Both the position numbers and the translations under genes were made by a program. 64,000 bases of DNA from a virus: the IMG/VR virus record IMGVR_UViG_3300028275_000006, positions 1 through 64,000 of that record, one strand, 5' to 3'. The notes under the pieces were generated by a model that saw nothing but the letters and a program-made list of their open reading frames with translations, searched no databases and had not been told where the DNA came from. Numbering within the stretch: the first letter of the stretch is position 1; the number at the start of each line of letters is the position of its first letter. Shown piece after piece: positions 15,901-51,898 of the stretch.

Positions 15901-18900
15901 TCGTTAGAAGGCATTAAACAAGTATTAGATACAGGCTTAAACTGGTTTGAAATAACCATGCCTGCTAATTTAGATACTGCGGCAATTGCAGAAATTAATT
16001 TATTTTTAAACATTAATTTGTTTAAATTTACTCCACAACGACTATCGTCAATTAACGATTTAAATTCCTTGCCTGTTTCTGCTAAGAAAAATAATGAAAT
16101 AGTATGGACAGACGGAGTCAACAATGCTTGGAGTGTCTGGAAGTTTGCTAAAACATACACTAGCACAAAAATCACTAGTGAAGAAAATTATTTTGGAAAA
16201 GTTATTGCGGTTGATAACACAGAAACAGTATTGGCAGCAACATCAACAAATGCAGTTTTGTTCTACAGCAGACCTACATCGACATTTGGATGGGCGTTCC
16301 AGGATTCTATTTTCCCATTATCGACAGAAACATTTACCGACACTAACGGAAGTTTCGGTGATAGTTTATGCTTTAATGCCGACGGATCTTACTTATTTGT
16401 AGGCGCACCGCGTTACGGTATTACATCTGAACCAGGTGCTCTACCAACAGATCCTCCAATCATTACAGAAGTGGATATTGGTTATGTGGCACAGTACACA
16501 AAAAATATCTACGGCAGTTACGAATTTACAAGAGTAATTCAAAGTGCTACACCAACACAGTTCCAATATTTTGGACAGAAGATACAGGTAAATGGAAATG
16601 TATTATACATTGTTTCTAAAGGCAATGGATCTTCAGTTCCAGCAGCCGTGTCTGCGTATAACTTAACAACAAACACTTTCCTAGCAACACTAACTCTACC
16701 AACAGGTATTAGTATAACTGACATAGATATTAGTTCGAGCAATATTGTAGCAATATCTAAAAATGACGAATCTGTTTTAGTTGTTCGTTTAGCAGGAACA
16801 GCCTTTACAACAGTACAAGAAATCAATGTTAGCGATTTTACATCACTAGAAGTTTTAGAAACAGGTAGTAATTTTGGCACATCTGTAGCAATTACAAAAG
16901 ATTCAACTTTTGTTGCTGTTGGTGTACCAGGGTATTCAGGCGTAGCATCTAATCAAGGAGCAGTTGCACTATTCAAATTAAATGCTTCAACATACGTTGC
17001 TGATGATTTTATTACAAGTCCGCTAAACCAAGACAGTGAAAAATTTGGATATAGAGTAAGATTTAATCTAGACAATGATAGATTAGTAATTTATAGTTAC
17101 GGTGGTAGTCAAACAATTGAAACAATAATTGACTCCGGCGAAACAACATTTGATTTAAATGTAACTACATTTATCGAAGAACAAGAATTTACTGGCAGTG
17201 TTCGTGTTTATGAAAAATACGACGCCAAGTTCTTAATCGGCGACGAATTAGAACCAACAGCAGTTTCTGGAATTAACTACGGCGATGCGTTTGTTGTAGC
17301 AAGAAAAATTTATATTAACGATCAAACATCGATTAACGGATCATTCCATGAGTTTTCTGGAAGCACTAAATCTTGGACTAAGTTCCGCGAACCGGAACCT
17401 AGTGTTAACTTATCTAAGATTAAATCATTGTTCTTATATAATACAAGAACAAACAGCGTAGTTGCCAACTTAGATTTTATCGATCCAATTACAGGAAAGA
17501 TTTTAGGAATCGCTGAACAAGAATTAACATTCAAAACATACTACGATCCAGCAATATATACAGTTGGTGTAGAATCTGTAGTAGTAGATTTACTAATGGG
17601 ATGGACAACACCTCATGTTGGTAAATTATGGTGGGATCTCAGCACTATTAAATTTGCTAATCCCCTACAAGGATCTATTGTATATAAAGCCAACACTTGG
17701 AATAATGTCTACAATGATTCCACTGTGGATATCTACGAATGGGTAGAATCTGAATACACACCGAGCGAATGGGATTCGTTAGCAGATACTGAAACTGGAC
17801 TAGCATTAGGTATTAGCGGAACATCTAAGTACGGCGACCTTGCATACAGTATTAAACAAAAATATGATACTATAAGCAAAACATTTACCAACACTTATTA
17901 TTTCTGGGTTAAAAATAAAACTACAGTACCTGACGTTACCTTTAGAAAAACGTCTGCCAGCGATGTTGCAAATTTAATATCCAATCCTAAAGGTCAGGGC
18001 ATTCAGTATGCTACTTTATTAGGTAAAAATCAATTTGCATTAGTGAACTGCAAAGGATTAATCACAGGCAAAGATGTTGCACTAAATGTTCGTTACTGGA
18101 CAGTGAATAATACTGAAAACAATATTCATGCACATTATCAGTTATTAGCAGAAGGAAACACTAATAAAAAACTTAACAAGTATGTTGAACAGAAATGGTT
18201 TGACAGTTTAATCGGTTACGATATCAACGGCGCAGAAGTGCCAGATCCTAGATTGCCTGCTAAATTGAAATACGGTATTCTAAACAAACCTCGTCAAGGT
18301 ATGTTTGTTAACAGACTTGAAGCTCTAAAACAATTTATAGAGCGTGTTAACTCTGTATTAATACAACGTGCAATTATTGACGACTTTGATTTTACAGCAT
18401 TAAACTCTAAAGAAGAACCTCCGACTGAATTATCAGGAAAGTACGATATTGCAATCGACAGTCAAAGTCAAATACGTTTTGTTGGCTCTACAGGATTTAT
18501 TCAAGCCACTGCTGTTCCGGTAGTAGAAGCAGGAAAGATTGTACGTGTTGTAGTTACAAATCCAGGCCGTGGATATAAAATTGCTCCAGAAATTATAGTT
18601 AATGGTGCAGGCACTGGCGTAAAATTAACAGCAAAGATTAACACTATTGGCGAAGTTACTGGTGTAACAGTTGATAACTTTGGCCGAGATTATTTAGATT
18701 CTACTACATTGTATATTAGACCATTTACAATTTTAGTCAACAATGATGAAACAGCGGCTAATAAATGGAGTTTATACATTTGGGATAGTGTCAAAGGCGA
18801 CTGGTTCAGATCAAAAACTCAAATTTATGATGTAACCAAGCATTGGGATTATGCCGACTGGTATGCCGATGGCTACAGCGCATTTACTAAAGTTGACCAT

Positions 18901-39619: not shown

Positions 39620-40483
39620 TTATGTTCCCCACTCATTTTTAAAGAGTGGAACTTGTAATCTATCGCTGTAGCGTAAACCGTTTTTCATTGCTAGTTCCGC
39701 TACACGCCTGTTGTTAAGAGTATAGACACTTTCAACGCCACCCACGGGCATAAGATATATAGGACCGGTAAAACCATTTTCTCTATAAATGTCAGCAGTT
39801 TCAATTGCTTCCTCCGCATCTTCTTCTGTGGCCACTACAAATTTAAGATATGTATGACCGTATTCTTCGTATTCACAAACTACGTCTGGACGAATTGCTT
39901 CGTGACGTTCTTCACCGGAGCAACTTAATTTAGCACTAACACTAAATGTAACTTCTCGCCAAAAATCTTTATCGCTGTGATATTTCCATGTGTGCAGATA
40001 TTGCTTGAACTCGTCGGTGAGTTTTTGAGTACCATTCGTTTCAAATGTAATCTCTTTTAAGTTTGTCATTTTTGGATGGTCGAGCAAGTCTGGATACGCT
40101 CGTTGCCATCCAAGCAAAGGTTCCCCTCCGGTAATGACCAAGTGTTCGTCTCGCCATTCGTTGAAGGGTAGAATCTCTGCGATCCTGTCTGCGATGGCGT
40201 CTGAAGTGAGCATTGGACTAAGATCCTTAAAGCGAGGATCCCAACTAGCATAACTATCACAGCCCGTAGATACCAAAGGAAGTTCTTCATATTTTTTATA
40301 TGGGGTTCGTTCATGTTGGATTGCAATATCTTCAACTTCTGTACTTAGTTCACCTTTTGGTAATCCAAAGCCAGCACATTTAAAGTTACAACCAAATGTT
40401 CTCAAGAAAACAGACGGTACACCCATGTAACGTCCTTCGCCTTGAATACTATAAAATAATTCTGCAATTTTTAATTTGCTCAT
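39620..40483 (-). CDS. queE: 7-carboxy-7-deazaguanine synthase QueE
   Basis: Radical SAM enzyme that ring-contracts 6-carboxy-tetrahydropterin to 7-carboxy-7-deazaguanine (CDG), the third step to preQ0. N-terminus YSIQGEGRYMGVPSVFLRTF is the QueE signature. The iron-sulfur Cys are Cys32 and Cys36 (GCNFKC) with the third probably Cys75 (STGCDSYAS), about 38 residues later than in the usual close-spaced motif; insertions of this kind are seen in phage QueE. VITGGEPLL is the SAM-binding GGE motif. FolE is encoded four genes upstream in the same operon; QueD-like and DpdA-like proteins are in the clamp operon. Confidence 0.9.
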   Translation of the reverse strand: MSKLKIAELFYSIQGEGRYMGVPSVFLRTFGCNFKCAGFGLPKGELSTEVEDIAIQHERTPYKKYEELPLVSTGCDSYASWDPRFKDLSPMLTSDAIADRIAEILPFNEWRDEHLVITGGEPLLGWQRAYPDLLDHPKMTNLKEITFETNGTQKLTDEFKQYLHTWKYHSDKDFWREVTFSVSAKLSCSGEERHEAIRPDVVCEYEEYGHTYLKFVVATEEDAEEAIETADIYRENGFTGPIYLMPVGGVESVYTLNNRRVAELAMKNGLRYSDRLQVPLFKNEWGT

Positions 40484-40944
40484 ATACAGTCACCTTGTTC
40501 TGCCAGTTTACTGGCGCTTGATTTTTCTTTACCTGCTTGTCTAAACAGTTTAACATCTTTAATTGCAGATTTCAATGTTTCGGCATAATTCAGTGCCTGT
40601 TGTTCAGTCATAGAAATAGTTGTTTCAACGGTCACTGCACCAGTTGTCCAAAGTTGCCAAGTTACTTTCAAACGAGTCCATAGCCCATTAATTAAATCTT
40701 TAACAAACCAATCAATCTCTTGTAGATACGGACTATCAATATCGTATCTTTTTTCAACTAGTTCAGACCAATAATCAGTTTTAGCAGTTGCGTAAATGTT
40801 TACATTAATACCAGTCTCACTAGATTCAACTTCTACATTGTGATCGTGATACTCTTGCCCGCAACCGCAGACAATTTGATAAAACTTAGTGTCGCCAAAG
40901 TCACTGCGTTTTAGAATTCCTTCTGCTGGTTGCTCTAATTTCAT
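40480..40944 (-). CDS. Conserved phage protein of unknown function
   Basis: 154 residues. A paired Cys motif near the N-terminus, QIVCGCGQEYHDHN (about 23-36), could bind metal. The rest is beta-strands (INVNIYATAKTDYWSELVE; VTWQLWTTGAVTVETTISM) and a helical C-terminus. Starts inside the previous stop and its own stop overlaps the QueE start (ATGA), so the two proteins are probably made together. Function unknown; participation in the deazaguanine pathway would be a guess. Confidence 0.58.
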   Translation of the reverse strand: MKLEQPAEGILKRSDFGDTKFYQIVCGCGQEYHDHNVEVESSETGINVNIYATAKTDYWSELVEKRYDIDSPYLQEIDWFVKDLINGLWTRLKVTWQLWTTGAVTVETTISMTEQQALNYAETLKSAIKDVKLFRQAGKEKSSASKLAEQGDCI

Positions 40945-41261
40945 TGTTTGAACATCTCTAAGTTAATAATTTTAGCAACACGCTCGCCAATATCTTCTCC
41001 GTTAGGAATCACATAAGTTTGACTTTCGTGTCTATCTTTACGGTCATCGTAGTGTCTTACATTTAAAATTTTACCACCGACGGCGGTGCTTAATTCGAAA
41101 GTGATTCGTCCTTCACCTTCTGCACGACCGCGTTCTATTGCTTGTGCTGTTCCGATTGCCAATTTATACTCTCTTTCTTTCATAGTTGCTTCTTCGTACT
41201 TGTGTCGATTATCCCACATATCGCGGACTTTTCCATACAACCATTTATCGACAAAATTCAT
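40941..41261 (-). CDS. Conserved phage protein of unknown function
   Basis: 106 residues from MNFVDKWLYGK. This start overlaps the preceding stop (ATGA) and has GGAG eight bases upstream, unlike two earlier ATGs. Sequence is helical at the N-terminus (VRDMWDNRHKYEEATMKERE) and beta-like later (GRITFELSTAVGGKILNVRH). No domain recognised. Part of the folE-queE operon. Confidence 0.58.
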   Translation of the reverse strand: MNFVDKWLYGKVRDMWDNRHKYEEATMKEREYKLAIGTAQAIERGRAEGEGRITFELSTAVGGKILNVRHYDDRKDRHESQTYVIPNGEDIGERVAKIINLEMFKQ

Positions 41262-41473
41262 TTGCATGTCTCCAACCATTTATCAAGAATATTTACAGCA
41301 TCATTGAAATCGATACCATATACTTCTGCACTGATAACATTGTCTTTGATTTGTATATCAAACGGAACAGTTCCGTTAAATCGAAAATCTTCGGGAACAT
41401 CTGTCTCTACAATATACTTGTGTAGATTTTTTGCTCTATTAATTAAATTAGTCGCCATGTCTACTGAATTCAT
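41258..41473 (-). CDS. Small hypothetical protein in the folE operon
   Basis: 71 residues, acidic, no recognised motif (segments NLINRAKNLHKYIVETD and VYGIDFNDAVNILDKWLE). ATG overlaps the folE stop (ATGA) and its own stop overlaps the next start in the same way. Function unknown. Confidence 0.55.
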   Translation of the reverse strand: MNSVDMATNLINRAKNLHKYIVETDVPEDFRFNGTVPFDIQIKDNVISAEVYGIDFNDAVNILDKWLETCK

Positions 41474-42168
41474 CTTGGTGCAAACTCCTGTTGTAGTTTA
41501 ATGTTATCAAAGAACTCTTTCTTTGTACCAGCATCGTCTTTGAACGCACCTTTAAGTACAGTAGTTTGAGTTAATGAACTATGTGCCATAATGCCACGAT
41601 TCTCACAGCATCCATGAACTGCCTGAATATAAACGCCAATATCACTTGCGCCAGTGGCCTTTTCAATTTCTCTGGCTATGTCGTTACACAATTCTTCCTG
41701 TAAGGTACCACGACGAGCGCACCATTGCGCGATTCGTGTGTATTTTGACAGCCCAATGAGTTTTTGGGCGGCGATGATTCCGATGTAGGCAACACCAGAA
41801 ACAGGCTGATGATGATGACTACACATACTACGAAGCTCACTCCTAACCACCAACATACCCTCATAACGATCTTCGCTATCGTTAGGAAACGCTGTTGCAT
41901 CTGGTGCTGGTTCATATCTTCCTGCCATTATTTCGTTAAAGTACATTTTTGCTAATCGTTTCGCTGTACCGTGCGAGTTAGGATCTGTCTCTCTGTCAAT
42001 AAGAAGTTTGTCTAAAACACTTTCAAATGCCTCAGTTGCTTCTTTGATTAGTTGTTCTTTGACTAGATCAGATTCGATGTATTCGCTGATGTTATCTCCT
42101 GCCCAGAATCTTTTTCCGTCTAGGACCATCTTTTCGCGAATCGCTTGTGCTAAATTTTTTTCTGACAT
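41470..42168 (-). CDS. folE: GTP cyclohydrolase I
   Basis: Converts GTP to dihydroneopterin triphosphate (EC 3.5.4.16), the first step of both folate and 7-deazaguanine synthesis. Conserved family features: zinc/active site MCSHHHQPVSGVAYIG (Cys116 and the following His), LIGLSKYTRIAQWCARR, and AVHGCCENRGI (His185, Cys187 and Cys188). Length 232 matches the family (about 220). First gene of an operon that also encodes QueE, with its own sigma-70 promoter and CGGAG before ATG. With a QueD-like protein and a DpdA-like protein in this window, a deazaguanine role is more likely than a folate one. Confidence 0.93.
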   Translation of the reverse strand: MSEKNLAQAIREKMVLDGKRFWAGDNISEYIESDLVKEQLIKEATEAFESVLDKLLIDRETDPNSHGTAKRLAKMYFNEIMAGRYEPAPDATAFPNDSEDRYEGMLVVRSELRSMCSHHHQPVSGVAYIGIIAAQKLIGLSKYTRIAQWCARRGTLQEELCNDIAREIEKATGASDIGVYIQAVHGCCENRGIMAHSSLTQTTVLKGAFKDDAGTKKEFFDNIKLQQEFAPR

Positions 42169-42205
42169 TATTTCTCCGAGTTATAGACGAGGATGTCTAT
42201 GTAAT

Positions 42206-42234
42206 ATAATATAGTTTATTTAGGTTTTTGTCAA
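42206..42234 (-). promoter_or_regulatory. Sigma-70 promoter of the folE-queE operon
   Basis: Minus strand: TTGACA (42229-42234), 17 bp spacer, TATTAT (42206-42211), 38 bases before the folE start. The spacer includes AAAACCTAAATA, which is nearly repeated in the spacer of the clamp promoter. Confidence 0.82.
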
Positions 42235-42447
42235 CTAAGTGCGTATACTTTTCTTATCAATATGTTGTTGTTCATATCGTAATCTACGGCATTCTTCCCT
42301 GACTGTATTAGGGATATCAGGATGCCATTCTGCCATCCCGCAATCATAGATGCGAGTTTGACTACCGTAATCGGTAAAAATAAGAATAAGCACAGCCGCT
42401 ATTAAAGCGACTGCGGCTGTAATCTTTCCGATAATAGTATCCGACAT
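42235..42447 (-). CDS. Small membrane protein
   Basis: 70 residues with one membrane segment near the N-terminus (KITAAVALIAAVLILIF, about 8-24) followed by a soluble tail containing IYDCGMAEWHPDIP and a charged helix (REECRRLRYEQQ). Start has AGGA nine bases upstream. A protein with this tail pattern is common in T4-like aquatic phages; no function known. Its stop lies at the -35 box of the folE promoter. Confidence 0.62.
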   Translation of the reverse strand: MSDTIIGKITAAVALIAAVLILIFTDYGSQTRIYDCGMAEWHPDIPNTVREECRRLRYEQQHIDKKSIRT

Positions 42448-42635
42448 AAGTCAGCATCCTTTTTTGATTTGAATGTAAATTTCATGTAGTCGTGTTGTGG
42501 ATGACTTTCGTATCTTCCGCCAGGTAGGCCAAATACTTCGAGCACCATGGCGCAAGTTTCATTCCACCAAAAACCTGATTGCCCGTCCCAATGGACGTAG
42601 ATATTATTCTGATCTTCCACTGGTGCAACTATCAT
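42402..42635 (-). CDS. Small hypothetical protein
   Basis: 77 residues, aromatic-rich (NIYVHWDGQSGFWWNETCAM), no recognised motif. It overlaps both neighbours (32 bases upstream, 46 downstream), so the true start may be the in-frame GTG at codon 6 region rather than the first ATG, which has only a weak ribosome binding site. Function unknown. Confidence 0.5.
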   Translation of the reverse strand: MIVAPVEDQNNIYVHWDGQSGFWWNETCAMVLEVFGLPGGRYESHPQHDYMKFTFKSKKDADLCRILLSERLQPQSL

Positions 42636-42804
42636 TCCAAAGTTCTTGTGCTCTGCGCTTATAGTCTTCTAATTCCCACACGGCTAATTTTTCACGAAAT
42701 ACTTCTTCGCTTAATCCGTGCCAGCCGATACAGTCTCCTGTAGGACTACGACCACAACCGCAAGTTCCAATTTTCTTTCCTTCTTCAGGTACTCTTACTT
42801 GCAT
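42604..42804 (-). CDS. Small Cys/His protein resembling a CDGSH-type iron-sulfur motif
   Basis: 66 residues from MQVRVPEEGKKIGTC, which has AGGA nine bases upstream; the open frame extends 63 bases further but without a ribosome binding site. Residues 15-29 read CGCGRSPTGDCIGWH, close to the CDGSH pattern (C-x-C-x2-S...C-D-G-x-H) but one residue shorter and with Ile for Asp. The rest is a charged helix. Iron-sulfur or zinc binding is possible but not established. The start lies inside the end of the HIT gene. Confidence 0.6.
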   Translation of the reverse strand: MQVRVPEEGKKIGTCGCGRSPTGDCIGWHGLSEEVFREKLAVWELEDYKRRAQELWNDSCTSGRSE

Positions 42805-43168
42805 TTTTATAATTTCCTTTACTTGGTATAACGTGACGAACCCCGCCACGAGGGTCTTCCATATCACCCTTGCGTCTAGGGATCATGTGTATATGAGGAT
42901 ACATTACTGTTTGGCCAGCAGTCTCGCCACAGTTTTGTCCGACATTAAAAGCGTCCCAACGTTCAGATTGGACACCATCGAACCCGAACTTGTATGCTCC
43001 TTTGAAACATTCGACGATGTTGGTAAAACGTTCATAGGTTGGCACAAAAAGCAAATGTCCTTCCGTAACTGGGTAGGCATCGTTGAAGACCCAATAGTCT
43101 TTTGTTCTGTACTCGATACTAGTCCATGGTGCTCTGCGTTCATCTAGTGCCCTTTCTAAATCAGTCAT
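42785..43168 (-). CDS. HIT-family protein
   Basis: 127 residues from MTDLERALDERRAPW, whose ATG overlaps the preceding stop (ATGA). The HIT motif is GQTVMYPHIHMIPR: aligned with GQTVxHxHxHxIPR, the first His is Tyr90, while His92 (nucleophile) and His94 are kept. The N-terminal DYWVFNDAYPVTEGHLLFVP is the usual HIT opening. HIT enzymes hydrolyse or transfer nucleotides (for example Ap4A or nucleoside phosphoramidates); the substrate here is unknown. Neighbour of a phosphoribosyltransferase gene. Confidence 0.85.
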   Translation of the reverse strand: MTDLERALDERRAPWTSIEYRTKDYWVFNDAYPVTEGHLLFVPTYERFTNIVECFKGAYKFGFDGVQSERWDAFNVGQNCGETAGQTVMYPHIHMIPRRKGDMEDPRGGVRHVIPSKGNYKNASKST

Positions 43169-43716
43169 AACCAAAATTCTTCCCAAGGATAAACAAGCCA
43201 ACAATCTTCTTGTCGCTTGTCTACGGTCCAAACATGATAGTCTGGATCTTTAAACTCACTGCCGTAATTATGTGTTAATACAGCAAAACGAACATTGTCT
43301 CCCCATACTTGATTCCATGCTTCATCGTTAGGAAAACAACCACTGGGCCAATCTTTCTTAATCCAATTAAGAGTAGATCCTTGATCGTTAATATCGTCTA
43401 CAATTAAGATTTTCTTTTTAAGACGTTCTAAATGTTTGTGATCGCCCCAAATGTGCCTTTCGTCATTGGGAACAACTCCCAAGGCATCTTCGGCCATCCA
43501 AAGATTACTTTCGCAATCGTTTTTATTATCGCGAAGGCTGACATTAAGTGTGTGCATCTTAATGCCAGTATATTGACTTAGTAAGTTAGCCGGAACAAGA
43601 CCACCGCGTGTAATACCTACAATATAGTCAGGCCTCCAATTATGTTCAGACATTTGGCGAGCAATTTCTAAACATGCGCCTTCAACTTGTGACCAACTGT
43701 AGTATACTTTCTTCAT
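43165..43716 (-). CDS. Type I phosphoribosyltransferase
   Basis: 183 residues from MKKVYYSWSQVEG, with ATGA overlap to the preceding gene; an ATG 30 bases upstream was rejected. PRPP-binding motif ILIVDDINDQGST (103-115), preceded by YIVGITRGGLVPANL (31-45) for the phosphate-side loop. Fold matches purine (hypoxanthine/xanthine/guanine) phosphoribosyltransferases. In this setting a purine or deazaguanine base may be its substrate, but the sequence does not settle this. It sits between QueD-like and FolE genes, within the clamp operon. Confidence 0.8.
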   Translation of the reverse strand: MKKVYYSWSQVEGACLEIARQMSEHNWRPDYIVGITRGGLVPANLLSQYTGIKMHTLNVSLRDNKNDCESNLWMAEDALGVVPNDERHIWGDHKHLERLKKKILIVDDINDQGSTLNWIKKDWPSGCFPNDEAWNQVWGDNVRFAVLTHNYGSEFKDPDYHVWTVDKRQEDCWLVYPWEEFWL

Positions 43717-43943
43717 GCAGTTAACCCATAGGCCAATGATTGACATTCTTCTTTAGTCATAAAGAAATTATAAGTTTGTGTACCAACAACTTCACCGTCT
43801 TTAAGACTTTCTTGAACCATATCGATACTAAACAAACCTTTAGGGCTTAGTACTTCGTGTTTCTTTAATGTTAGCCTAAAACCGGCGTGTTCTTTGACAA
43901 CCATTTCTTTATAAGTATCTCTAACTGATTCATGTAGTTCCAT
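43713..43943 (-). CDS. Small conserved phage protein
   Basis: 76 residues, with a beta-like core (AGFRLTLKKHEVLSPKGLF; GTQTYNFFMTKEECQSL). AAAGGAG is followed by three ATG codons in a row; the third is taken as start for best spacing. It overlaps the end of the preceding gene and couples to the phosphoribosyltransferase through an ATGA overlap. Function unknown. Confidence 0.55.
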   Translation of the reverse strand: MELHESVRDTYKEMVVKEHAGFRLTLKKHEVLSPKGLFSIDMVQESLKDGEVVGTQTYNFFMTKEECQSLAYGLTA

Positions 43944-44382
43944 CATCATCTCCTTTAATTGCGTCCCACGTTCTATATTTGGCTAATGCCTTAATATAGT
44001 CATCATACATCTTTTTTAACTTTGGATGCTTCTTTTCTAGTTTAACATCTCGCTCGGGAATTTGCAAGACTTTTTCAATTGTGTTTAACCTTTCTTCTAG
44101 GTCAACACCATTTAATACCATTCGACCTTTAACTTCTAACTCCGGTGGATCGTTTTTGGCAACCATCACCGGATTGGTAGTAGGATTAGCCCAAGTTACA
44201 TTTGTACCTGTAGTATAAGTTAACGGCACAGATGTAGTGCCGGCTCCGGTTGAAATCGTATATCCACTGCCAGAGCCGCCTGTGCCGTTCGATACTAAAA
44301 CACTACCTGAACCGGCACCGGAACCTGCTATGCCGCCGGCTGTATTAAGTATTACGCTTCCGTGATTGTAAGTATAGCTCAT
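43930..44382 (-). CDS. Gly/Ser/Thr-rich protein with conserved C-terminus, unknown function
   Basis: 150 residues. The first 80 are low-complexity Gly/Ser/Thr (GSGAGSGSVLVSNGTGGSGS), like surface or fibre-tip sequence. Residues 84-140 are conserved among T4-like phages: LEVKGRMVLNGVDLEERLNT, then VLQIPERDVKLEKKHPKLKK and MYDDYIKALAKYRTW. Although encoded in the early clamp operon it looks like a virion-associated or head protein. GGA before ATG; overlaps the preceding gene by 38 bases. Function not known. Confidence 0.58.
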   Translation of the reverse strand: MSYTYNHGSVILNTAGGIAGSGAGSGSVLVSNGTGGSGSGYTISTGAGTTSVPLTYTTGTNVTWANPTTNPVMVAKNDPPELEVKGRMVLNGVDLEERLNTIEKVLQIPERDVKLEKKHPKLKKMYDDYIKALAKYRTWDAIKGDDDGTT

Positions 44383-44800
44383 TTGGTATCCATTTATTAT
44401 TAACGAGAAATCCCCATTCTCTCTTTTGCGGACCTGGCATAAAAAGTGTCCAACACTCTACGTTGGGATCAATTTCAATTCTATGAAAACTGTTGGCACT
44501 ACAAATTCTAAAGTGTCCAGGCTTTCTCCATTTGGCAATTTCACAGACCTTTACTCCCTGGCTGTTAAATTGAGGAATCCATTCCCAATAGCCACCTTTT
44601 AGAATAAGTGTGGCATAAGGCCATGGGTGATCATGCACATCATCTGGATCACCTTTATGAAACTTGTGTAAGAATACATTAAATGGAAACCATTTACGAT
44701 CCTTTAAAAATAGATAATAACGTGTAAGTAACGGCTCGTCACAGGTACGATCCATAATAATACGCTTGCGACCGAGACGTTCTAACAGTTTTAATATCAT
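44345..44800 (-). CDS. Cupin-like protein
   Basis: 151 residues with a likely double-stranded beta-helix. His/Asp cluster DPDDVHDHPWPYATLILKGG (about 51-70) followed by RKPGHFRICSANSFHRIEI (about 92-110) gives candidate metal ligands His56, His58 and His106, a cupin arrangement. ECWTLFMPGPQKREWGF closes the domain. Cupin proteins of this type are found in many T4-like phages near sugar-related genes; the reaction is unknown. ATG overlaps the stop of the glycosyltransferase gene, suggesting joint function. Confidence 0.7.
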   Translation of the reverse strand: MILKLLERLGRKRIIMDRTCDEPLLTRYYLFLKDRKWFPFNVFLHKFHKGDPDDVHDHPWPYATLILKGGYWEWIPQFNSQGVKVCEIAKWRKPGHFRICSANSFHRIEIDPNVECWTLFMPGPQKREWGFLVNNKWIPNELYLQSRKRNT

Positions 44801-45870
44801 ACAAGTCTTTCTAAGAGTCCATTTGCAGAAAAGAAATTTTCAGTTAAGTCTTGAGTTTGTTTTCTAAGTTGTGGTAAAAACTTTTCATAGTTATCCATAT
44901 ACTGGATAATCTTTGCACATATTTCTGGACGGTGTGCTTTATATGCTTCGAAACTTTCAGTCCATTCACTAGGATACTTAAAAGTATCATAGCCCATTTC
45001 ACTGTAACTAAGTCTATCTGGCACCATAGGAATAGCATCTACAACAGCGCCTTCATACCAACTAATCCCTAATGTCTCTTGTAAGTTTGCAGAGAACACT
45101 AATTTCGATTCGCCTAACAAGTTATGATATTCATTTTTTGTTAGTTGTTGATCCTGACAGACTACGAACTCGTACTGTGGCAAGTGTTCTTTTAAATCTC
45201 TAAAAATTTCAACTTGCTTCTCGGGTGCGATGCGATGAGGGAAAAGAATTAAATCACGTTTTTTCATCCCTTTATATGGAGTTAATGTATCTTCCATATA
45301 CTCCATTGGCCAACCTGTGCGTACAATTTTTCCTTTATCGATATATGATGCTTTTGCAGTATCGTAATCTATGTTTAAAAGATTATGACAAAACATTTCA
45401 ATATGGAATGTTGTAGCAAAGTAGTTATGATCTATAGCATGAAAGAAACTCTTTTCAGCATTTCTGACCCAAGGAGCATCGCCAATTAGACGACCTAAAA
45501 AGTCCTGTGGATCGTAACTACCGGCATGCCATAGTGCGTGAATAGTTACAGGAATCTGTAACAGTTCACTCATATACTTTAGGTTGATGATACCAGGGTG
45601 CCAAGCATCAGTAAAGATGAAGTGATCATTAGGAGCCACTGATCCGGCGCAAAACAACCTACCCATTTGCTCAACTTGAGCAGACTTGTATATATTGGTG
45701 CCACCAAAATTAAGAAAAGCACCAGGAGTAGTGGCTGAAGGAATATCCGTAGGCCCAGATAAAACTTGAACATCGTGTCCTCTCTTTCTCAGGATAGCCG
45801 GTAGGTGGGTCTTCCACTGCGCTGTATAGCGTGTTTCTACCGGCTCAAGGTCTACTAAGTAGACGGTCAT
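44797..45870 (-). CDS. GT4-like glycosyltransferase
   Basis: 357 residues with the two-domain layout of GT-B glycosyltransferases. The N-terminal domain begins VYLVDLEPVETRYTAQWKTH; the C-terminal domain has LILFPHRIAPEKQVEIFRDL (about 206-225), the usual opening of the donor-binding part, and SANLQETLGISWYEGAVVDA (about 265-284), the E-x7-E region. Possible acceptors are modified DNA bases, phage protein or a host surface glycan; the context with deazaguanine genes makes DNA attractive but unproven. ATGA overlaps join it to both neighbours. Confidence 0.78.
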   Translation of the reverse strand: MTVYLVDLEPVETRYTAQWKTHLPAILRKRGHDVQVLSGPTDIPSATTPGAFLNFGGTNIYKSAQVEQMGRLFCAGSVAPNDHFIFTDAWHPGIINLKYMSELLQIPVTIHALWHAGSYDPQDFLGRLIGDAPWVRNAEKSFFHAIDHNYFATTFHIEMFCHNLLNIDYDTAKASYIDKGKIVRTGWPMEYMEDTLTPYKGMKKRDLILFPHRIAPEKQVEIFRDLKEHLPQYEFVVCQDQQLTKNEYHNLLGESKLVFSANLQETLGISWYEGAVVDAIPMVPDRLSYSEMGYDTFKYPSEWTESFEAYKAHRPEICAKIIQYMDNYEKFLPQLRKQTQDLTENFFSANGLLERLV

Positions 45871-46100
45871 TGGCGACCATTCCTGTAGTTGTTATTGTAC
45901 CCGTTGTTATTACGGGGACGATTTTCAAATCGTCTGTCGTTGTTATAACGACGAGGACGCTTAGACGCCTCGTAAGCCTGCCAAGTTTTACTTTGGCGGT
46001 TATACAAGTCTGCCTCATTGTAAGGCAGAAGGTTGAATCTGCAAAAATCTAGCAGATTGTCAAGATCGTCAAAAATTTGAACGACTTCTTTTTTCATCAT
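45867..46100 (-). CDS. Small protein with Asn/Arg-rich tail
   Basis: 77 residues. N-terminal helix (EVVQIFDDLDNLLDFCRFNL) and a C-terminal low-complexity tail of Arg, Asn and Tyr (about 50-77), suggesting nucleic-acid binding. Found in similar form in T4-like aquatic phages. Function unknown. Confidence 0.58.
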   Translation of the reverse strand: MMKKEVVQIFDDLDNLLDFCRFNLLPYNEADLYNRQSKTWQAYEASKRPRRYNNDRRFENRPRNNNGYNNNYRNGRQ

Positions 46101-46108
46101 TGTTTCCT

Positions 46109-46504
46109 TTAGTATTTGATGAATGAACCATTTTCTCCGTCTTCGGAGACCTCAATCCAAATCTCGCGATTTGGATACTTCTTGCTAATGATGTCATGTA
46201 ATTCGTCAGACATCATTTCACAACTCTTGTAGTCAAGGCTTATAGTGGCACCTTGACCATTATACAACGACTCGAGCCATCGTTTGAATTGGATGAATTC
46301 GATGTCCCTGTCATTGTGTTGCACACTGATCCACACCCTGAAATGAAAGATGTGGCGATGAGGGTGACCCAAAAACGATACGTCATATTCGTCTCCTGTT
46401 GCTAGATTAGGATCTGTTAGTGCCGCAGGATACTTATGGATACCTTCTTTGCGGAAAGTTACCCAGATCATTTTGTTTGGTCTAATGTCTTGTTTGATAA
46501 TCAT
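46109..46504 (-). CDS. queD: QueD/6-pyruvoyl-tetrahydropterin-synthase-like protein
   Basis: 131 residues from MIIKQDIRPNK, which overlaps the preceding stop (ATGA). Order of elements fits the T-fold QueD family: FRKEGIHKYP with His23; HPHRHIFHFRVWISV (His49, His51, in the place of the zinc-binding HGH); DIEFIQFKRWLESLY in the place of the conserved DF..LK helix; SCEMMSDELHDII, then IWIEVSEDGENG with the family's C-terminal Glu. The catalytic Cys in the CxxxHGH motif is missing or moved. QueD makes 6-carboxy-tetrahydropterin from dihydroneopterin triphosphate, between FolE and QueE. Divergent, so the call is moderate. Confidence 0.62.
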   Translation of the reverse strand: MIIKQDIRPNKMIWVTFRKEGIHKYPAALTDPNLATGDEYDVSFLGHPHRHIFHFRVWISVQHNDRDIEFIQFKRWLESLYNGQGATISLDYKSCEMMSDELHDIISKKYPNREIWIEVSEDGENGSFIKY

Positions 46505-47040
46505 GTTGGTGTATCTTGAGTGTACAAATCCCAATGAGTATACTTGTCTTTAGTCATTAGGCTTTGTAAATGATGTGTCCACACACCTGGATTTGTAGCA
46601 CCCCAAGTTCGGTCATCCAGTTTGAGTGTGGCATTGTAGTTGAGTTGATTAATGTAGGGTAACTTGACACTAATCATAGGTACAAACTTGGGATATTCGT
46701 TATAAGCAGACTCTAGTACGCCTTCGATGTGTTCAACACCAAAGTCTAGAGCTACCCAATAGCCTGCTTTTAGACAGCCTATAATAACTTCGTCCCATGC
46801 TTTGTATTCTTCGTGTGAAATACTTTTAGGATTAAAACTTTGACTAGTGCCAAAGTAAATTTGTTTAATGCGTTTGTTTTCGTCTAAGTATGCTTGTGTG
46901 TCACCAGCAATACGTAGTATTTCTTCTAGCGGAGGAGTGCCTACTACAAATAGTGTATACATACCATAGCAAATAGTATGTTCGACTTCGTAGCCTGTAA
47001 AGTAGACAATGTCTTGTCTTTCTTCAGTGTTTAATCCCAT
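46501..47040 (-). CDS. Conserved phage protein of unknown function, next to queD-like gene
   Basis: 179 residues. Contains AYLDENKRIKQIYFGTSQSF, GCLKAGYWVALDFGVEHIEG and the C-terminal HHLQSLMTKDKYTHWDLYTQ, a tail shared by proteins of this kind in T4-like aquatic phages. No known fold assigned; the alternating hydrophobic segments suggest a TIM-barrel-like or other alpha/beta protein. It is translationally coupled to the QueD-like gene (ATGA) and overlaps the dehydrogenase gene by 10 bases. A role in the same pathway is possible but unproven. Confidence 0.6.
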   Translation of the reverse strand: MGLNTEERQDIVYFTGYEVEHTICYGMYTLFVVGTPPLEEILRIAGDTQAYLDENKRIKQIYFGTSQSFNPKSISHEEYKAWDEVIIGCLKAGYWVALDFGVEHIEGVLESAYNEYPKFVPMISVKLPYINQLNYNATLKLDDRTWGATNPGVWTHHLQSLMTKDKYTHWDLYTQDTPT

Positions 47041-47921
47041 TTAATATAACCTCTGCTATAACCATTTGGACGATCCACACCATCCGCAAATGCTTGTTGC
47101 CATTCTGTGTTACGATTATAACCTTTTGTCCAGAAAGAATCAACCTCTAGTTTACCGTTTTCAATCATCCAACGTGCTTCAAACATAGCACCAATAAATT
47201 CTTCTGTTCTTGGACTTGGTTTAACTGTAGTAACAGCCTTCCAAAGTTGTTGTTGTGCTTCTTCTTTACTTACTGCTTTACCAACAGCATCAATGATTAC
47301 TGCATTGTTATTTAGATTAATGTCGGTACCTAGTTGATATTTTCCAGATAAATCTACTATCAAATCGTAACTGTCGGTAGTACCTAACAGTAACGCATCT
47401 CCCCAAAGTTCCTGATTACTAGAACCTAGTACATCTACTTCAAGTTCTGGAAAATGATGTGCCAGGTTATTAAAAACTACCCATGCAAGGAAACCACTAC
47501 CTAGGATTAAGCATTTACCATTTTGTCTACGTTCAAAAAGAGTATACGCTTGTCTAATACAGTTAACACCACAGGCCACTGGTTCTAAAATGTAACGTGG
47601 ATGTAGTTCTAAAACTGTTACAAACTCACCGTCACGACAGTTGTAATAATCTGCGTATGCTGGTTCGCCGCGGGTAGCAACATAATCGCCTACTTTAACA
47701 CCTAATACACTGGCACCGACTTTAGTTACGATTCCTAGACCTTCGTGACCTTGCATGTGTAGTGGTAAAGGTCCAAAGTTGCCCTGCATCATATCTATGT
47801 CACTGCGACATACACCAGTCATAACTGCTTTAACTTCAATTTCAGTTGACGTAGGTTCTGGCTTTGCATATTCTACTTCTTCAAAGTAACCTTGTCCAGT
47901 TGTTTGTAGACAGCGTGTCAT
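47031..47921 (-). CDS. Zinc-type alcohol dehydrogenase-like (MDR) protein
   Basis: 296 residues from MTRCLQTTGQ, whose ATG overlaps the preceding stop. GroES-like catalytic domain with zinc ligand Cys38 (TGVCRSDID), His59-Glu60 (MQGHEGLG) and the Pro-Val-Ala-Cys-Gly-Val turn (113-119); the structural-zinc loop of alcohol dehydrogenases is absent. The NAD(P)-binding domain has GSGFLA at 141-146, a GxGxxA motif. It is shorter than usual MDR enzymes (about 340). Pairs with a Gfo/Idh/MocA oxidoreductase upstream; sugar or polyol oxidation is a guess. Confidence 0.8.
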   Translation of the reverse strand: MTRCLQTTGQGYFEEVEYAKPEPTSTEIEVKAVMTGVCRSDIDMMQGNFGPLPLHMQGHEGLGIVTKVGASVLGVKVGDYVATRGEPAYADYYNCRDGEFVTVLELHPRYILEPVACGVNCIRQAYTLFERRQNGKCLILGSGFLAWVVFNNLAHHFPELEVDVLGSSNQELWGDALLLGTTDSYDLIVDLSGKYQLGTDINLNNNAVIIDAVGKAVSKEEAQQQLWKAVTTVKPSPRTEEFIGAMFEARWMIENGKLEVDSFWTKGYNRNTEWQQAFADGVDRPNGYSRGYIKWD

Positions 47922-48796
47922 AGTTTTTCTATTCTTTCGTGTATCCAAAGGTCAATTTCTAACTGTACTTTCCAGTACTCGTCATTATTTAGGTTTTCTA
48001 CAGCATCTTTAATCATATTTAGGTACGCTTCTTCTGGACACCAGCCTAACTCAAATACATCTTTGGTATTATCTTGATTAATAAATGTAATAGCACTACG
48101 TTCAACAGTCATACTGCGCCAGTTAGCACGGCAGTTCCATTTAGAACCAAATCCAATGTGACACTGGTCGTCTACATCATAAGTTCCATTTGGGTTTACA
48201 GTACCATACTCTGTGCTTTCGATATCTTTTAACAGCCATGATTGTATAGATGATTCGCCGTTAACTTTTTCTATGCGCCAGTCTGGATGTAGTGCAATAT
48301 ACAAACTTAATAAGTGTGGCATTAAGTCCCTACTAACTCCGCCAAATGCTAGTTTGCGTGTAGTAAACCAACTACCTGGGCTAGGAATACAGTTCTTTCT
48401 AATCCATTCGATGTCTACATTCTTTGCTACTTTAGCCTTTTCCTGTAATTCTGCAATATTGTCACGCCACATATTATTTTTAACCATCATAAATCGTGTG
48501 CGTGGAAATCTTTTACATAATTTAGCCCATTCGTTTCTATTAATCAGTCCAGGCTTTTCAATAAAGACAATTTTACTGATAGGAGCCAGTTTAACGGCTA
48601 ATTCTAAATGCGTAAAATTTGGTGTGCAAATATGTACGGTGTCAAAAGACCCGTGAAGTAATATGGCTGGTTCTATACTAGGGAAGTCGGCATTTTTATT
48701 AATGTCTGTATCGACAGTACAAACTTCATAACCTAATTGAGTTAGGACAGATTTATATAACTGTCCTATTCCCATTCCTACAACTAAACTTTTCAT
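47918..48796 (-). CDS. Gfo/Idh/MocA-family oxidoreductase
   Basis: 292 residues. N-terminal Rossmann motif VVGMGIGQLY (Gly7, Gly9, Gly11) and the family signature Glu80-Lys81-Pro82 (KIVFIEKPGL), which holds the catalytic Lys. The C-terminal alpha/beta domain has SWFTTRKLAFGGVSRDLMPH, where His is the usual conserved residue. The enzymes oxidise or reduce sugars and related compounds with NAD(P). ATGA overlaps tie it to the MDR dehydrogenase and to the small secreted protein upstream. Substrate unknown. Confidence 0.82.
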   Translation of the reverse strand: MKSLVVGMGIGQLYKSVLTQLGYEVCTVDTDINKNADFPSIEPAILLHGSFDTVHICTPNFTHLELAVKLAPISKIVFIEKPGLINRNEWAKLCKRFPRTRFMMVKNNMWRDNIAELQEKAKVAKNVDIEWIRKNCIPSPGSWFTTRKLAFGGVSRDLMPHLLSLYIALHPDWRIEKVNGESSIQSWLLKDIESTEYGTVNPNGTYDVDDQCHIGFGSKWNCRANWRSMTVERSAITFINQDNTKDVFELGWCPEEAYLNMIKDAVENLNNDEYWKVQLEIDLWIHERIEKL

Positions 48797-49050
48797 CTAT
48801 ATGTTGGTAGTTCGTTAACACATTTAATAAGAGATCCGGATTGTTTGCCCGCTAATTGATGTAGCGCATAATCCGGAGAGGATACACAGGCTTCGTGCCC
48901 ATTGAATTTATCTGCTAGGGCAATGGTGTTGCCAGTTTCTGCAAATTTAATTACAAGATAGTAGTCGTTTGGACCCACGGCATCTGCCGTTTTATAAAAC
49001 AAACCAAAACTTAATACTGCTAAAACACCAATGCCTAGTAGTTTTTTCAT
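48793..49050 (-). CDS. Small secreted protein with signal peptide
   Basis: 85 residues. Clear signal peptide: Lys-Lys, then GIGVLAVLSFGLFY and a likely cleavage after ADA (about residue 24). The mature part is about 60 residues with two Cys (55 and 77) that could form a disulfide in the periplasm. No recognised domain. It lies between the DpdA-like and Gfo/Idh genes with ATGA overlaps on both sides. It may act in the cell envelope, for example in exclusion of other phages, but this is only a guess. Confidence 0.62.
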   Translation of the reverse strand: MKKLLGIGVLAVLSFGLFYKTADAVGPNDYYLVIKFAETGNTIALADKFNGHEACVSSPDYALHQLAGKQSGSLIKCVNELPTYR

Positions 49051-50594
49051 TTTACGCCTTCTTCGAGTTCGTCAAGTTTAGCAATTTCATCATCGGTAAA
49101 TTCTTCACCGTGCTCTAATTGTACACTCTCTTCCTCTACTTCGTCAAACAGTTTGGCAAATTGTGTACTTGCGTTTACAGTCTTCTTACCTACTGCTCCG
49201 CGAGTTCCAATAATACTTTGCCAAAATTTATTATACTCTTCAACGACTTTGTCTGCTTCTGCACGACTACTAGTAGCAAAAATGGCTTCTACTACATCTT
49301 TAAAGAATAGTCTATCAAACCGTTCTTCTACTAACATAGCAGGAACAATGCCCAAATCGTATTGACGATTGGCTTCTTGTACAGCATTAATGTGCATCCA
49401 AACATTATGGCCCATTAAGATAGCGTAACTAAAACTATCCCACGAAGTTTTACCTTCCTTGCCAATCTTGTTTAGATCCCCGGGCCCGTAAATACAAACA
49501 TCTTTAATTTGAACCCCGTCAATAATTGGACTATTGTCAAAGTTTTTAAAATGTCCGTCCTGTACTACTGCATCGCGGAATAGTCTAGTATCTTTACTAT
49601 ATTTTTTATTATCGATACTAGGTAACATTCTATATACCCACTTAGTTCTGTCTTGTGTTTCTGTTTGAACGTATACTTGTCCGTTTGCAGTTGCTAAGAA
49701 TGGACTAGCACAGTCGAAACTAATTGTAAAGTTAGGATTGTGATACTTGCGTACAGCACGTTGAATGTCTGTTAATAAACAAGCCCACTCTAATTTACTA
49801 GTACCTAAGAAGTGCATCCAGTCTTGTTTGCCCTGTTCAAGTAATCCGTCAAATCGTAATGCTACTAGGCGTTTTAATACCAAGTGTACATCACACATAT
49901 TCTGACCACCCATGGCCCAACCGTTAAATGCACGGTCACCGTAGACAGTAGGATCGCAGTACTTCTTCATTCGGTCATACCAATCGTCTGCATCGGTATG
50001 ATTTTCACCTTGGAGAACGTTTAAGAATTTACAATTACCATTGCGATTGTTTACAAACCAATCGTTGTTAATGTAAGTACCTTGAACTGCTTCTGCGTAT
50101 GTAGTAATGCCTGTGGCTTTTTGTCCAGCAGGGCTACGAGCTACCCAAGCAGGGATATCAAGACACATACCATAGTCCATTAGACTATCCATCCACTTAA
50201 GAACCTGTTCACGTTTCTTTTGTGCTTTAGGACAGTTGGGATTCTTCCAATCGCCTTCCCATACACCTTTACCAATTTGGAAACCACCGGAGTCGCCTAG
50301 TACCCAACTAGTACTGCGATCTCTATTACGAAACATATCTTCGCTGTGATCAACTTTGTTAAGGTCTAGATTAGCATGACCTGCACTATACAAGCAGTGG
50401 TCATAGTAGAACGCACCTTTTTCCGGTTCTAAGTAGTTTAGACTTTCTACTCCGTTTTTAAAACTAGCAGGAACTCTTGCCGGATCAACATAGTTTCCAT
50501 ATCTTTGTTTACCTATAAAGGTACTATAGAAACCGCTAGTTGCCGGCAAAAAGTATGCGTAGTCGTTTTGTGTTGCGGTTAAATTTTTATTCAT
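49047..50594 (-). CDS. dpdA: DpdA-like DNA deazaguanine transglycosylase (TGT family)
   Basis: 515 residues. Motifs of tRNA-guanine transglycosylase occur in the right order: VLGDSGGFQIG (98-108), LDIPAW with Asp146, LNVLQGENH (191-199) for the QGG loop, FNGWAMGGQ (223-231) for the GGL loop, HFLGTSKLEW (261-270) for LMGVG, and ISFDCASP (291-298), where Asp294 corresponds to the nucleophile. The C-terminal CxCxxC zinc site of tRNA enzymes is not seen, and the protein is longer than TGT (about 375). DpdA enzymes exchange guanine for preQ0 or a relative in DNA. FolE, QueE and a QueD-like protein encoded nearby would supply the base. It lies in the sliding-clamp operon, so it should act during replication. 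Confidence 0.8.
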   Translation of the reverse strand: MNKNLTATQNDYAYFLPATSGFYSTFIGKQRYGNYVDPARVPASFKNGVESLNYLEPEKGAFYYDHCLYSAGHANLDLNKVDHSEDMFRNRDRSTSWVLGDSGGFQIGKGVWEGDWKNPNCPKAQKKREQVLKWMDSLMDYGMCLDIPAWVARSPAGQKATGITTYAEAVQGTYINNDWFVNNRNGNCKFLNVLQGENHTDADDWYDRMKKYCDPTVYGDRAFNGWAMGGQNMCDVHLVLKRLVALRFDGLLEQGKQDWMHFLGTSKLEWACLLTDIQRAVRKYHNPNFTISFDCASPFLATANGQVYVQTETQDRTKWVYRMLPSIDNKKYSKDTRLFRDAVVQDGHFKNFDNSPIIDGVQIKDVCIYGPGDLNKIGKEGKTSWDSFSYAILMGHNVWMHINAVQEANRQYDLGIVPAMLVEERFDRLFFKDVVEAIFATSSRAEADKVVEEYNKFWQSIIGTRGAVGKKTVNASTQFAKLFDEVEEESVQLEHGEEFTDDEIAKLDELEEGVK

Positions 50595-51163: not shown

Positions 51164-51898
51164 TTATTTGCTCTGTGCTGGCAAGATGTAATCATATACA
51201 GCAACACCGCTGTCAACAGTAATCTGCATAGCACCTGCATCTGCAATCTTCATAGTAATATTACCATCGAGATTTAAAATGCTTTGTACTTGTGCAACAG
51301 GCCATGACCATGTGTGCTTTAACTTGCCGCCAACATCGTGTTGGAATACAAAAGAACCTGCGTGTGTACTTGCATCACCGAAGAAGAATACAAGATTGTT
51401 ATCTTCTGTACGAACTTGGAAAACAGTTTCTTCACTGTGTGCCGCACTTTGTAACTTCAAACGACCAATTGCCGCCATGCTTGGTTCAAACTCAACTTCC
51501 CATGTTGCACCTTTGAACTTAACAGATTTTAGTTTTTCGTTAATAAGTTCTGATGCCATGAAACGATAATCGTTTTGGAAGTCACCTGCTTGGTTTTCAA
51601 AGTGCAAACCTACTGGAACTGTGTTGCCGTTACGTTCCGCAGTAACTACATCGATCTTTGCGTTTTCTTTATACTCTGGATTCTTCAAGTGAAGATTTAA
51701 CTTGTCCAAGTTTGGCATACCAAATGTGCCATCAAACTCTGATACTGGCTTGTGTGCAGTAGCAGTAACAATAACGCTACGATCCTCTGCCATTGATTCG
51801 ATAGTTGTGCTATCTTTAGCACCTGTAATTTTTACCAAAGGCAAAAAGCCTAGGCTATGTGTATGTGCTACGATGTCGGTTAGAATATCTTTAATCAT
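51164..51898 (-). CDS. 45: Sliding clamp (gp45-like)
   Basis: 244 residues, similar in length to T4 gp45 (228). PCNA-like clamp with a typical two-domain repeat; the C-terminus MQITVDSGVAVYDYILPAQS is characteristic of clamps of T4-like aquatic phages. The clamp tethers DNA polymerase and, with gp55, is the mobile enhancer of late transcription. Its gene has a consensus sigma-70 promoter, and AAGGAG before ATG. The polymerase gene lies directly upstream; the long operon downstream carries the DpdA-like and QueD-like genes. Confidence 0.87.
   Translation of the reverse strand: MIKDILTDIVAHTHSLGFLPLVKITGAKDSTTIESMAEDRSVIVTATAHKPVSEFDGTFGMPNLDKLNLHLKNPEYKENAKIDVVTAERNGNTVPVGLHFENQAGDFQNDYRFMASELINEKLKSVKFKGATWEVEFEPSMAAIGRLKLQSAAHSEETVFQVRTEDNNLVFFFGDASTHAGSFVFQHDVGGKLKHTWSWPVAQVQSILNLDGNITMKIADAGAMQITVDSGVAVYDYILPAQSK

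Follow-up and report, generated by a model that had tools for sequence, protein, structure and literature searches.

A predicted 7-deazaguanine DNA-modification module combining a divergent DpdA-like transglycosylase, a DpdL-type T-fold protein and a GT4 glycosyltransferase in a phage contig

The first 64,000 nucleotides of the IMG/VR virus record IMGVR_UViG_3300028275_000006, a contig of 212,542 bp, carry a cluster of 7-deazaguanine-related genes next to a sliding clamp gene. We refer to positions 1 to 64,000 as the window and give positions within it unless the contig is named; all of the window genes discussed here lie on the minus strand. In the pathway that we propose, FolE, QueE and a QueD encoded outside the window would convert GTP to 7-carboxy-7-deazaguanine (CDG), a DpdL-type T-fold protein would remove the carboxyl group of CDG to yield 7-deazaguanine, and a DpdA-like transglycosylase would exchange 7-deazaguanine for guanine in the phage DNA. 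A GT4 glycosyltransferase (GT), perhaps together with a conserved 179-residue protein (p179), would probably act on 7-deazaguanine or on DNA carrying it. We regard this pathway as a whole, including the GT4 step, as reasonably likely. A first-pass annotation had already proposed a 7-deazaguanine DNA-modification route here; the route itself is well supported, but the QueD-like identity given to one of its enzymes is not, and the carboxy form or host-supplied preQ0, which it had considered as the inserted base, is less likely than 7-deazaguanine.

The genes for FolE (GTP cyclohydrolase I, 41470–42168), the QueE-like CDG synthase (39620–40483) and the transglycosylase (49047–50594) are minus-strand open reading frames where they had been placed, and the first two are identified by profiles. 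FolE exceeds the cut-off of the Pfam profile GTP_cyclohydroI (1.4e-38) and matches a PHROG profile (2.6e-44). QueE matches the radical-SAM, QueE-like profile PHROG 2076 (2.1e-54), yet it scores under the NCBIfam equivalog cut-offs and does not have the canonical CX3CX2C motif. Its three cysteines are present as C32 and C36 (CX3C) and a displaced C75 in the sequence GCDS, past an insertion; this split motif occurs in 112 of 124 unique relatives and the canonical one in 9. As the first-pass annotation had observed, the window has no QueC. Its suggestion that QueC may lie elsewhere in the genome found no support, with a search of the whole contig returning none, and no QueC scored over the cut-off in nine large relatives. 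QueF is absent from the relatives, the window's own contig having been outside that search.

A divergent DpdA-like transglycosylase

The 515-residue product of 49047–50594 has no match in Pfam, PHROG or NCBIfam, and the Pfam profile of tRNA-guanine transglycosylases (TGTs) has zero matches across the contig, this protein included. In tblastn it was related, at 28–33% identity, to 'hypothetical proteins' encoded by the PA5oct group, by Phosso and by Vibrio phage 2.275.O. With 55 relatives as input, AlphaFold2 gave a model with a predicted local distance difference test score (pLDDT) of 88.9 and a predicted template modeling score of 0.85, and the model's 29 best matches in the Protein Data Bank (PDB) are all TGT or QTRT structures (best E 1.1e-6, probability 1.00). 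D101 (in DSGGFQ), D146 (in LDIP), G196 and D294 (in SFD) are invariant among about 220 unique relatives; we take D101, D294 and D146 to correspond to the catalytic and base-binding aspartates D102, D280 and D156 of TGT. On the strength of the model, the protein is assigned to the TGT superfamily as a predicted DpdA. The first-pass annotation had staked this call on a profile match, and by the plain TGT profile the call fails; what upholds it is the TGT fold, found by the structure prediction that had been proposed as a check, along with the invariant aspartates.

That DNA would be the target of this enzyme is suggested by its linkage to the pathway genes and to the sliding clamp, whose gene (51164–51898; product with 33% identity to the clamp annotated in Phosso) lies directly upstream. 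To survey the gene neighbourhood, hidden Markov models built from the collected loci were run over all of them, and counts were made for the 126 distinct DpdA-anchored IMG/VR loci with no less than 1 kb of upstream and 5.5 kb of downstream sequence. The clamp linkage noted in the first-pass annotation proved to be conserved, with a clamp in 120 of the 126 loci, and the dpdA gene of phage 9g adjoins a clamp gene as well.

The lineage of the enzyme was compared with the recognized DpdA types. The DpdA proteins of ACP17, X1 and BUCT-ZZ01 are of the DpdA2 type (PHROG 10773), as is that of nt-1 (1.5e-46), and PHROG 887 (DpdA1, 9g type) takes in the 9g DpdA and an enzyme from a Bacteroides metagenome-assembled genome (MAG). 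The window protein hits neither PHROG, and hhalign gave probabilities of 0.1 against the 9g DpdA and 0.5 against that of nt-1. Its core aligns distantly with an alignment of the DpdA2 proteins of ACP17, X1 and BUCT-ZZ01 (probability 92.9, E 3.7e-7; in a second comparison, probability 89.5, E 2e-6). The PADLOC model of bacterial DpdA leaves the window protein unmatched, and the same model barely reaches the 9g DpdA (0.02). Judged by these sequence comparisons, the lineage is placed outside DpdA1 and DpdA2. DpdA3 and DpdA4 have reportedly been defined too, and the lineage is set apart here from DpdA1 and DpdA2 only, not from these. A viral scan with the PA5oct DpdA as the query gave no matches, and PDB sequence searches with the DpdA, DpdL, GT and p179 profiles returned nothing useful.

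A T-fold protein in the place of QueC

The 131-residue product of 46109–46504, previously called QueD-like, is rejected as a QueD. It matches no PTPS or QueD profile of Pfam or NCBIfam, aligns with phage QueDs by hhalign only over its C-terminal part (probability 17.5) and falls in a separate family, PHROG 17812. Its AlphaFold2 model (pLDDT 89.2) has the β-β-α-α-β-β order of a T-fold, and the best PDB match of the model is E. coli QueD (E 6.6e-4, probability 1.00). The family retains three zinc histidines (H23, H49 and H51) and an anchor glutamate, E121; R66, E69 and E96 are invariant, and H63 and C95 nearly so, in 222 sequences. The catalytic cysteine four residues before the HxH motif is invariant in true phage QueDs, but all 222 family members have leucine at that position (Leu45 in the window protein). 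Structure prediction, also proposed in the first-pass annotation, bore out the QueD fold for this protein; of the QueD residues, the zinc histidines are kept and the catalytic cysteine is not. This phage does have a true QueD, encoded outside the window at contig positions 97,001–97,528 (E 8e-28), and a separate true QueD accompanies the T-fold protein in 10 of 11 reference phages, the exception being Vibrio phage D479.

Relatives of the T-fold protein were found in ACP17 (57% identical), phiST (34%), PA5oct, Phosso, X1, BUCT-ZZ01 and other phages. None of the 11 phages with this protein has a full-length QueC; X1 has a QueC-profile hit below the cut-off and D479 a partial one above it. The T-fold protein is absent from 9g, nt-1 and 2.275.O, all three of which have QueC. 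These three were picked as QueC references, and the mutual exclusion of the two proteins is to be read as a pattern rather than an unbiased test. In Amycolatopsis, three loci show the order T-fold protein, QueD, QueE and FolE; at one Amycolatopsis locus (L346), a DpdA-like reading frame precedes the T-fold protein, and terminase- and portal-like genes, as read by eye, follow. DpdL is reportedly the CDG decarboxylase in 7-deazaguanine (dDG) DNA modification. Because the family takes the place of QueC in FolE/QueD/QueE/DpdA cassettes, we read 46109–46504 as a QueD paralogue and a probable DpdL-type CDG decarboxylase standing in for QueC, and the same substitution makes 7-deazaguanine a likelier inserted base than the carboxy form or host preQ0. 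We refer to the family as DpdL below.

Bakedbeans (L248, 14182–15363) and MA9V-3 (L253, 11461–12345) have DpdL as the C-terminal portion of longer proteins. In Streptomyces sp. NEAU-Y11 (L348/L349, 7962–9630), DpdL, QueD and FolE occur together without a recognised DpdA, near natural-product-like genes, and a 7-deazapurine product is possible at that locus.

The glycosyltransferase, p179 and the conserved module

The GT4-family (GT-B) glycosyltransferase (44797–45870, 357 residues) and p179 (46501–47040) belong to the core of the module. Homologues of the GT lie beside DpdL in Phosso (49% identical), PA5oct (41%) and ACP17 (36%). The window protein alone matches no Pfam GT family, and its X1 relative matches PF00534 (Glycos_transf_1) at 8e-12. 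The motifs R-x3-EK and E-x7-E are conserved, and none of 192 sequences deviates at R213, K218 or E273 (the second glutamate of E-x7-E), so that the enzyme looks catalytically intact. p179 is also present in ACP17 and PA5oct and gave no PDB profile match of note; our suspicion, formed by eye, that it is a degenerate QueE was not supported by hhalign. In a Bacteroides MAG, the DpdL and GT genes have a marginal relative of p179 between them (L342, 8372–8920; E 0.021), and in the cyanophage BUCT-ZZ01 (L250), two GT4-like genes (12388–13731 and 15379–16545) flank the DpdA2 and DpdL genes. Neither the GT nor its 179-residue partner had been mentioned in the first-pass annotation.

DpdL and GT are each found in 122 of the 126 loci and p179 in 118, and in the loci with 9 kb of downstream sequence, DpdL, GT, p179 and the clamp are all present (66/66). 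Wherever a DpdA-anchored locus has DpdL, it has GT too, and the pair is on the same strand in 122 of 122 cases. The four loci without DpdL are nearest to Phosso, in which DpdA is located about 170 kb from the DpdL–GT pair. The genes are typically arranged as clamp, DpdA, p179, DpdL and GT, followed by FolE, cupin, phosphoribosyltransferase, HIT and QueE genes in varying order. The earlier division of the route over two operons is not borne out, for the relatives hold clamp, DpdA, p179, DpdL, GT, FolE and QueE as one same-direction block. The IMG/VR loci were fetched with the module genes as baits and come mostly from one broad phage group; the counts measure cohesion, not independence. More independent evidence of the GT–DpdL pairing comes from five divergent reference phages (Phosso, PA5oct, ACP17, X1 and BUCT-ZZ01) and from a GTDB scan with the DpdL profile, which found GT near DpdL on contigs of Magnetospirillum, Rhodospirillaceae, Methylobacterium, Rhodobacteraceae, Deltaproteobacteria, Bacteroides, Bacillota and Altiarchaeales, several of them MAG contigs that may be phage DNA.

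Several accessory genes accompany this core. A purine (xanthine/guanine-type) phosphoribosyltransferase (43165–43746; Pfam 2.2e-13, NCBIfam XPRT-like 1.4e-12) is frequent (91/126 loci), and possibly salvages the guanine released by DpdA; such a gene adjoins QueE in BUCT-ZZ01 (L250, 10459–10932) and PA5oct (L003, 9166–9600). A cupin/cysteine-dioxygenase-like protein (44345–44800; PHROG 4786, 4.6e-35) occurs in 88 of the loci and a HIT-domain protein (42785–43231; Pfam HIT, 1.1e-7) in 67. Located between DpdA and p179, a zinc alcohol-dehydrogenase-like protein (47031–47948; Pfam ADH_N, 5.1e-12) and a GFO/IDH/MocA-type oxidoreductase (47918–48796; Pfam 1.9e-5) form an optional pair present in 34 of the 126 loci and always together (34/34), possibly for tailoring of the sugar donor.

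Assessment of the pathway and comparison with known systems

A glycosylated 7-deazaguanine base in DNA, with the sugar added by GT4 and p179 at the 2-amino group, C7 or a residual carboxyl group and the base inserted by the new DpdA lineage, is a tentative reading of this association. Precedent for such a linkage is found in huimycin, in which a base of the 7-deazaguanine type bears N-acetylglucosamine at its 2-amino group, put there by a proposed glycosyltransferase (PMC7439116). The modification might then be a DNA counterpart of the glycosylated queuosine of tRNA, common among uncultured phages and occurring in bacterial genomes too, although we put this forward with the same reserve. The literature that we searched ties no glycosyltransferase to 7-deazaguanine DNA, and the conserved association of GT4 and p179 is, as far as we found, undescribed.

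Several points weigh against the proposed pathway. 7-Deazaguanine has no hydroxyl group and thus no obvious O-acceptor for a sugar. The T-fold family, whose patterns fit the CDG decarboxylase DpdL, is identified with the published DpdL sequence only presumptively. D479 is one possible exception to the occurrence of DpdL in the place of QueC: a partial QueC-profile match (profile positions 133–201) over the cut-off is encoded at OZ195776.1 153872–154066, and no QueD was detected in this phage. DpdL occurs without GT in phiST, MA9V-3, D479, Ahp1, Bakedbeans, RHph_I1_18 and Amycolatopsis, so GT would be dispensable for base insertion. Finally, 4-mer palindromes containing G are depleted in the contig (observed/expected 0.735, compared with 1.007 for AT-only palindromes), and AGCT is about sevenfold under-represented (95 observed, 648 expected over 212,542 bp), in every piece of the contig. 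Avoidance of G palindromes would be needless if every G were protected, which argues against complete protection; it suggests either a host nuclease that is not fully stopped by the modification or incomplete modification. AGCT avoidance was not seen in the PA5oct, Phosso or ACP17 stretches. Papers describing PA5oct, MIJ3, Callisto and Paride contain no data on DNA modification. The modification may still protect this phage against restriction, by analogy with related phages for which protection has been demonstrated (PMC6884629).

Among the alternatives, the one that fares best, though we think it unlikely, is that GT4 is a mere neighbour that glycosylates the host surface, the capsid, another phage target or another DNA base. 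Glycosyltransferases are common in phages, and both the missing hydroxyl acceptor and the existence of DpdL without GT fit this explanation; however, the 122 same-strand loci, the five divergent reference phages and the bacterial and archaeal contigs of several phyla make the pairing so persistent that a chance neighbour is implausible.

A second alternative, one of the versions offered in the first-pass annotation, is that CDG itself is inserted, in which case the T-fold protein would be no decarboxylase and GT may form a sugar ester with the carboxylate. We hold this to be improbable. The lack of QueC in the contig and the nine large relatives suits it, the carboxylate would supply the acceptor that GT needs, decarboxylation is itself inferred, and a carboxy base has already been raised for phage Bipper, which is missing only QueC (PMC6884629). 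On the other hand, the zinc triad, the anchor glutamate and the other invariant residues are kept in about 220 homologues of the T-fold protein, which is also found in cassettes without GT, and these features fit a catalytic step between QueE and DpdA. The insertion of host-supplied preQ0, with the phage enzymes merely raising the CDG flux for the host QueC, has still less in its favour. QueC is widespread in bacteria, and the same DpdA lineage occurs with QueC and QueF in 2.275.O and so may accept preQ0 or preQ1, but the conserved DpdL would be left without a role, and the QueC-bearing 2.275.O has neither DpdL nor GT. That the genes serve host tRNA queuosine or folate/biopterin metabolism, as proposed for phages without DpdA (PMC6884629), is very improbable: FolE and QueD also serve tRNA pathways, but the DpdA-like protein is no canonical TGT, adjoins a sliding clamp and is accompanied by QueC neither in the contig nor in the nine large relatives, nor by QueF in the relatives that were searched for it.

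The proposed pathway through 7-deazaguanine links three orphan families, namely a DpdA lineage without a family profile, p179 and a GT4 lineage, as parts of a single DNA-modification module. The module occurs in over 120 distinct viral loci, on bacterial contigs and in cultured phages (the PA5oct group, including MIJ3, Callisto and Paride, as well as ACP17, X1 and Phosso). If GT acts on the base, the module would represent a new class of DNA hypermodification; if it does not, the module would be a dDG route of wide occurrence that uses a new lineage of transglycosylase.

The dDG/DpdL system as reported resembles the window module in that a small decarboxylase joins FolE, QueD and QueE in the absence of QueC, ACP17 and phiST being examples; the window DpdA is unlike the DpdA2-type enzyme of ACP17 and far from the short phiST protein. 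Vibrio phage 2.275.O has the same DpdA lineage beside a clamp, together with FolE and QueE, but its cluster is of the preQ1 type, with QueC, QueF and a Vut_1-type transporter and with neither DpdL nor GT. The preQ0/archaeosine phages 9g, CAjan and nt-1 (PMC6884629) share FolE, QueD, QueE and a TGT-fold transglycosylase, with a clamp-adjacent dpdA in 9g. Unlike these phages, the window phage has a DpdL-type T-fold protein and no QueC or Gat-QueC (nor QueF, as far as its relatives show), a GT4 gene with p179, and a DpdA of another lineage. Huimycin biosynthesis (PMC7439116) differs in leading to a small-molecule product, with QueC and a methyltransferase and with no DpdA or DNA target, but it likewise pairs homologues of FolE, QueD and QueE with a glycosyltransferase that acts on a base derived from 7-deazaguanine.

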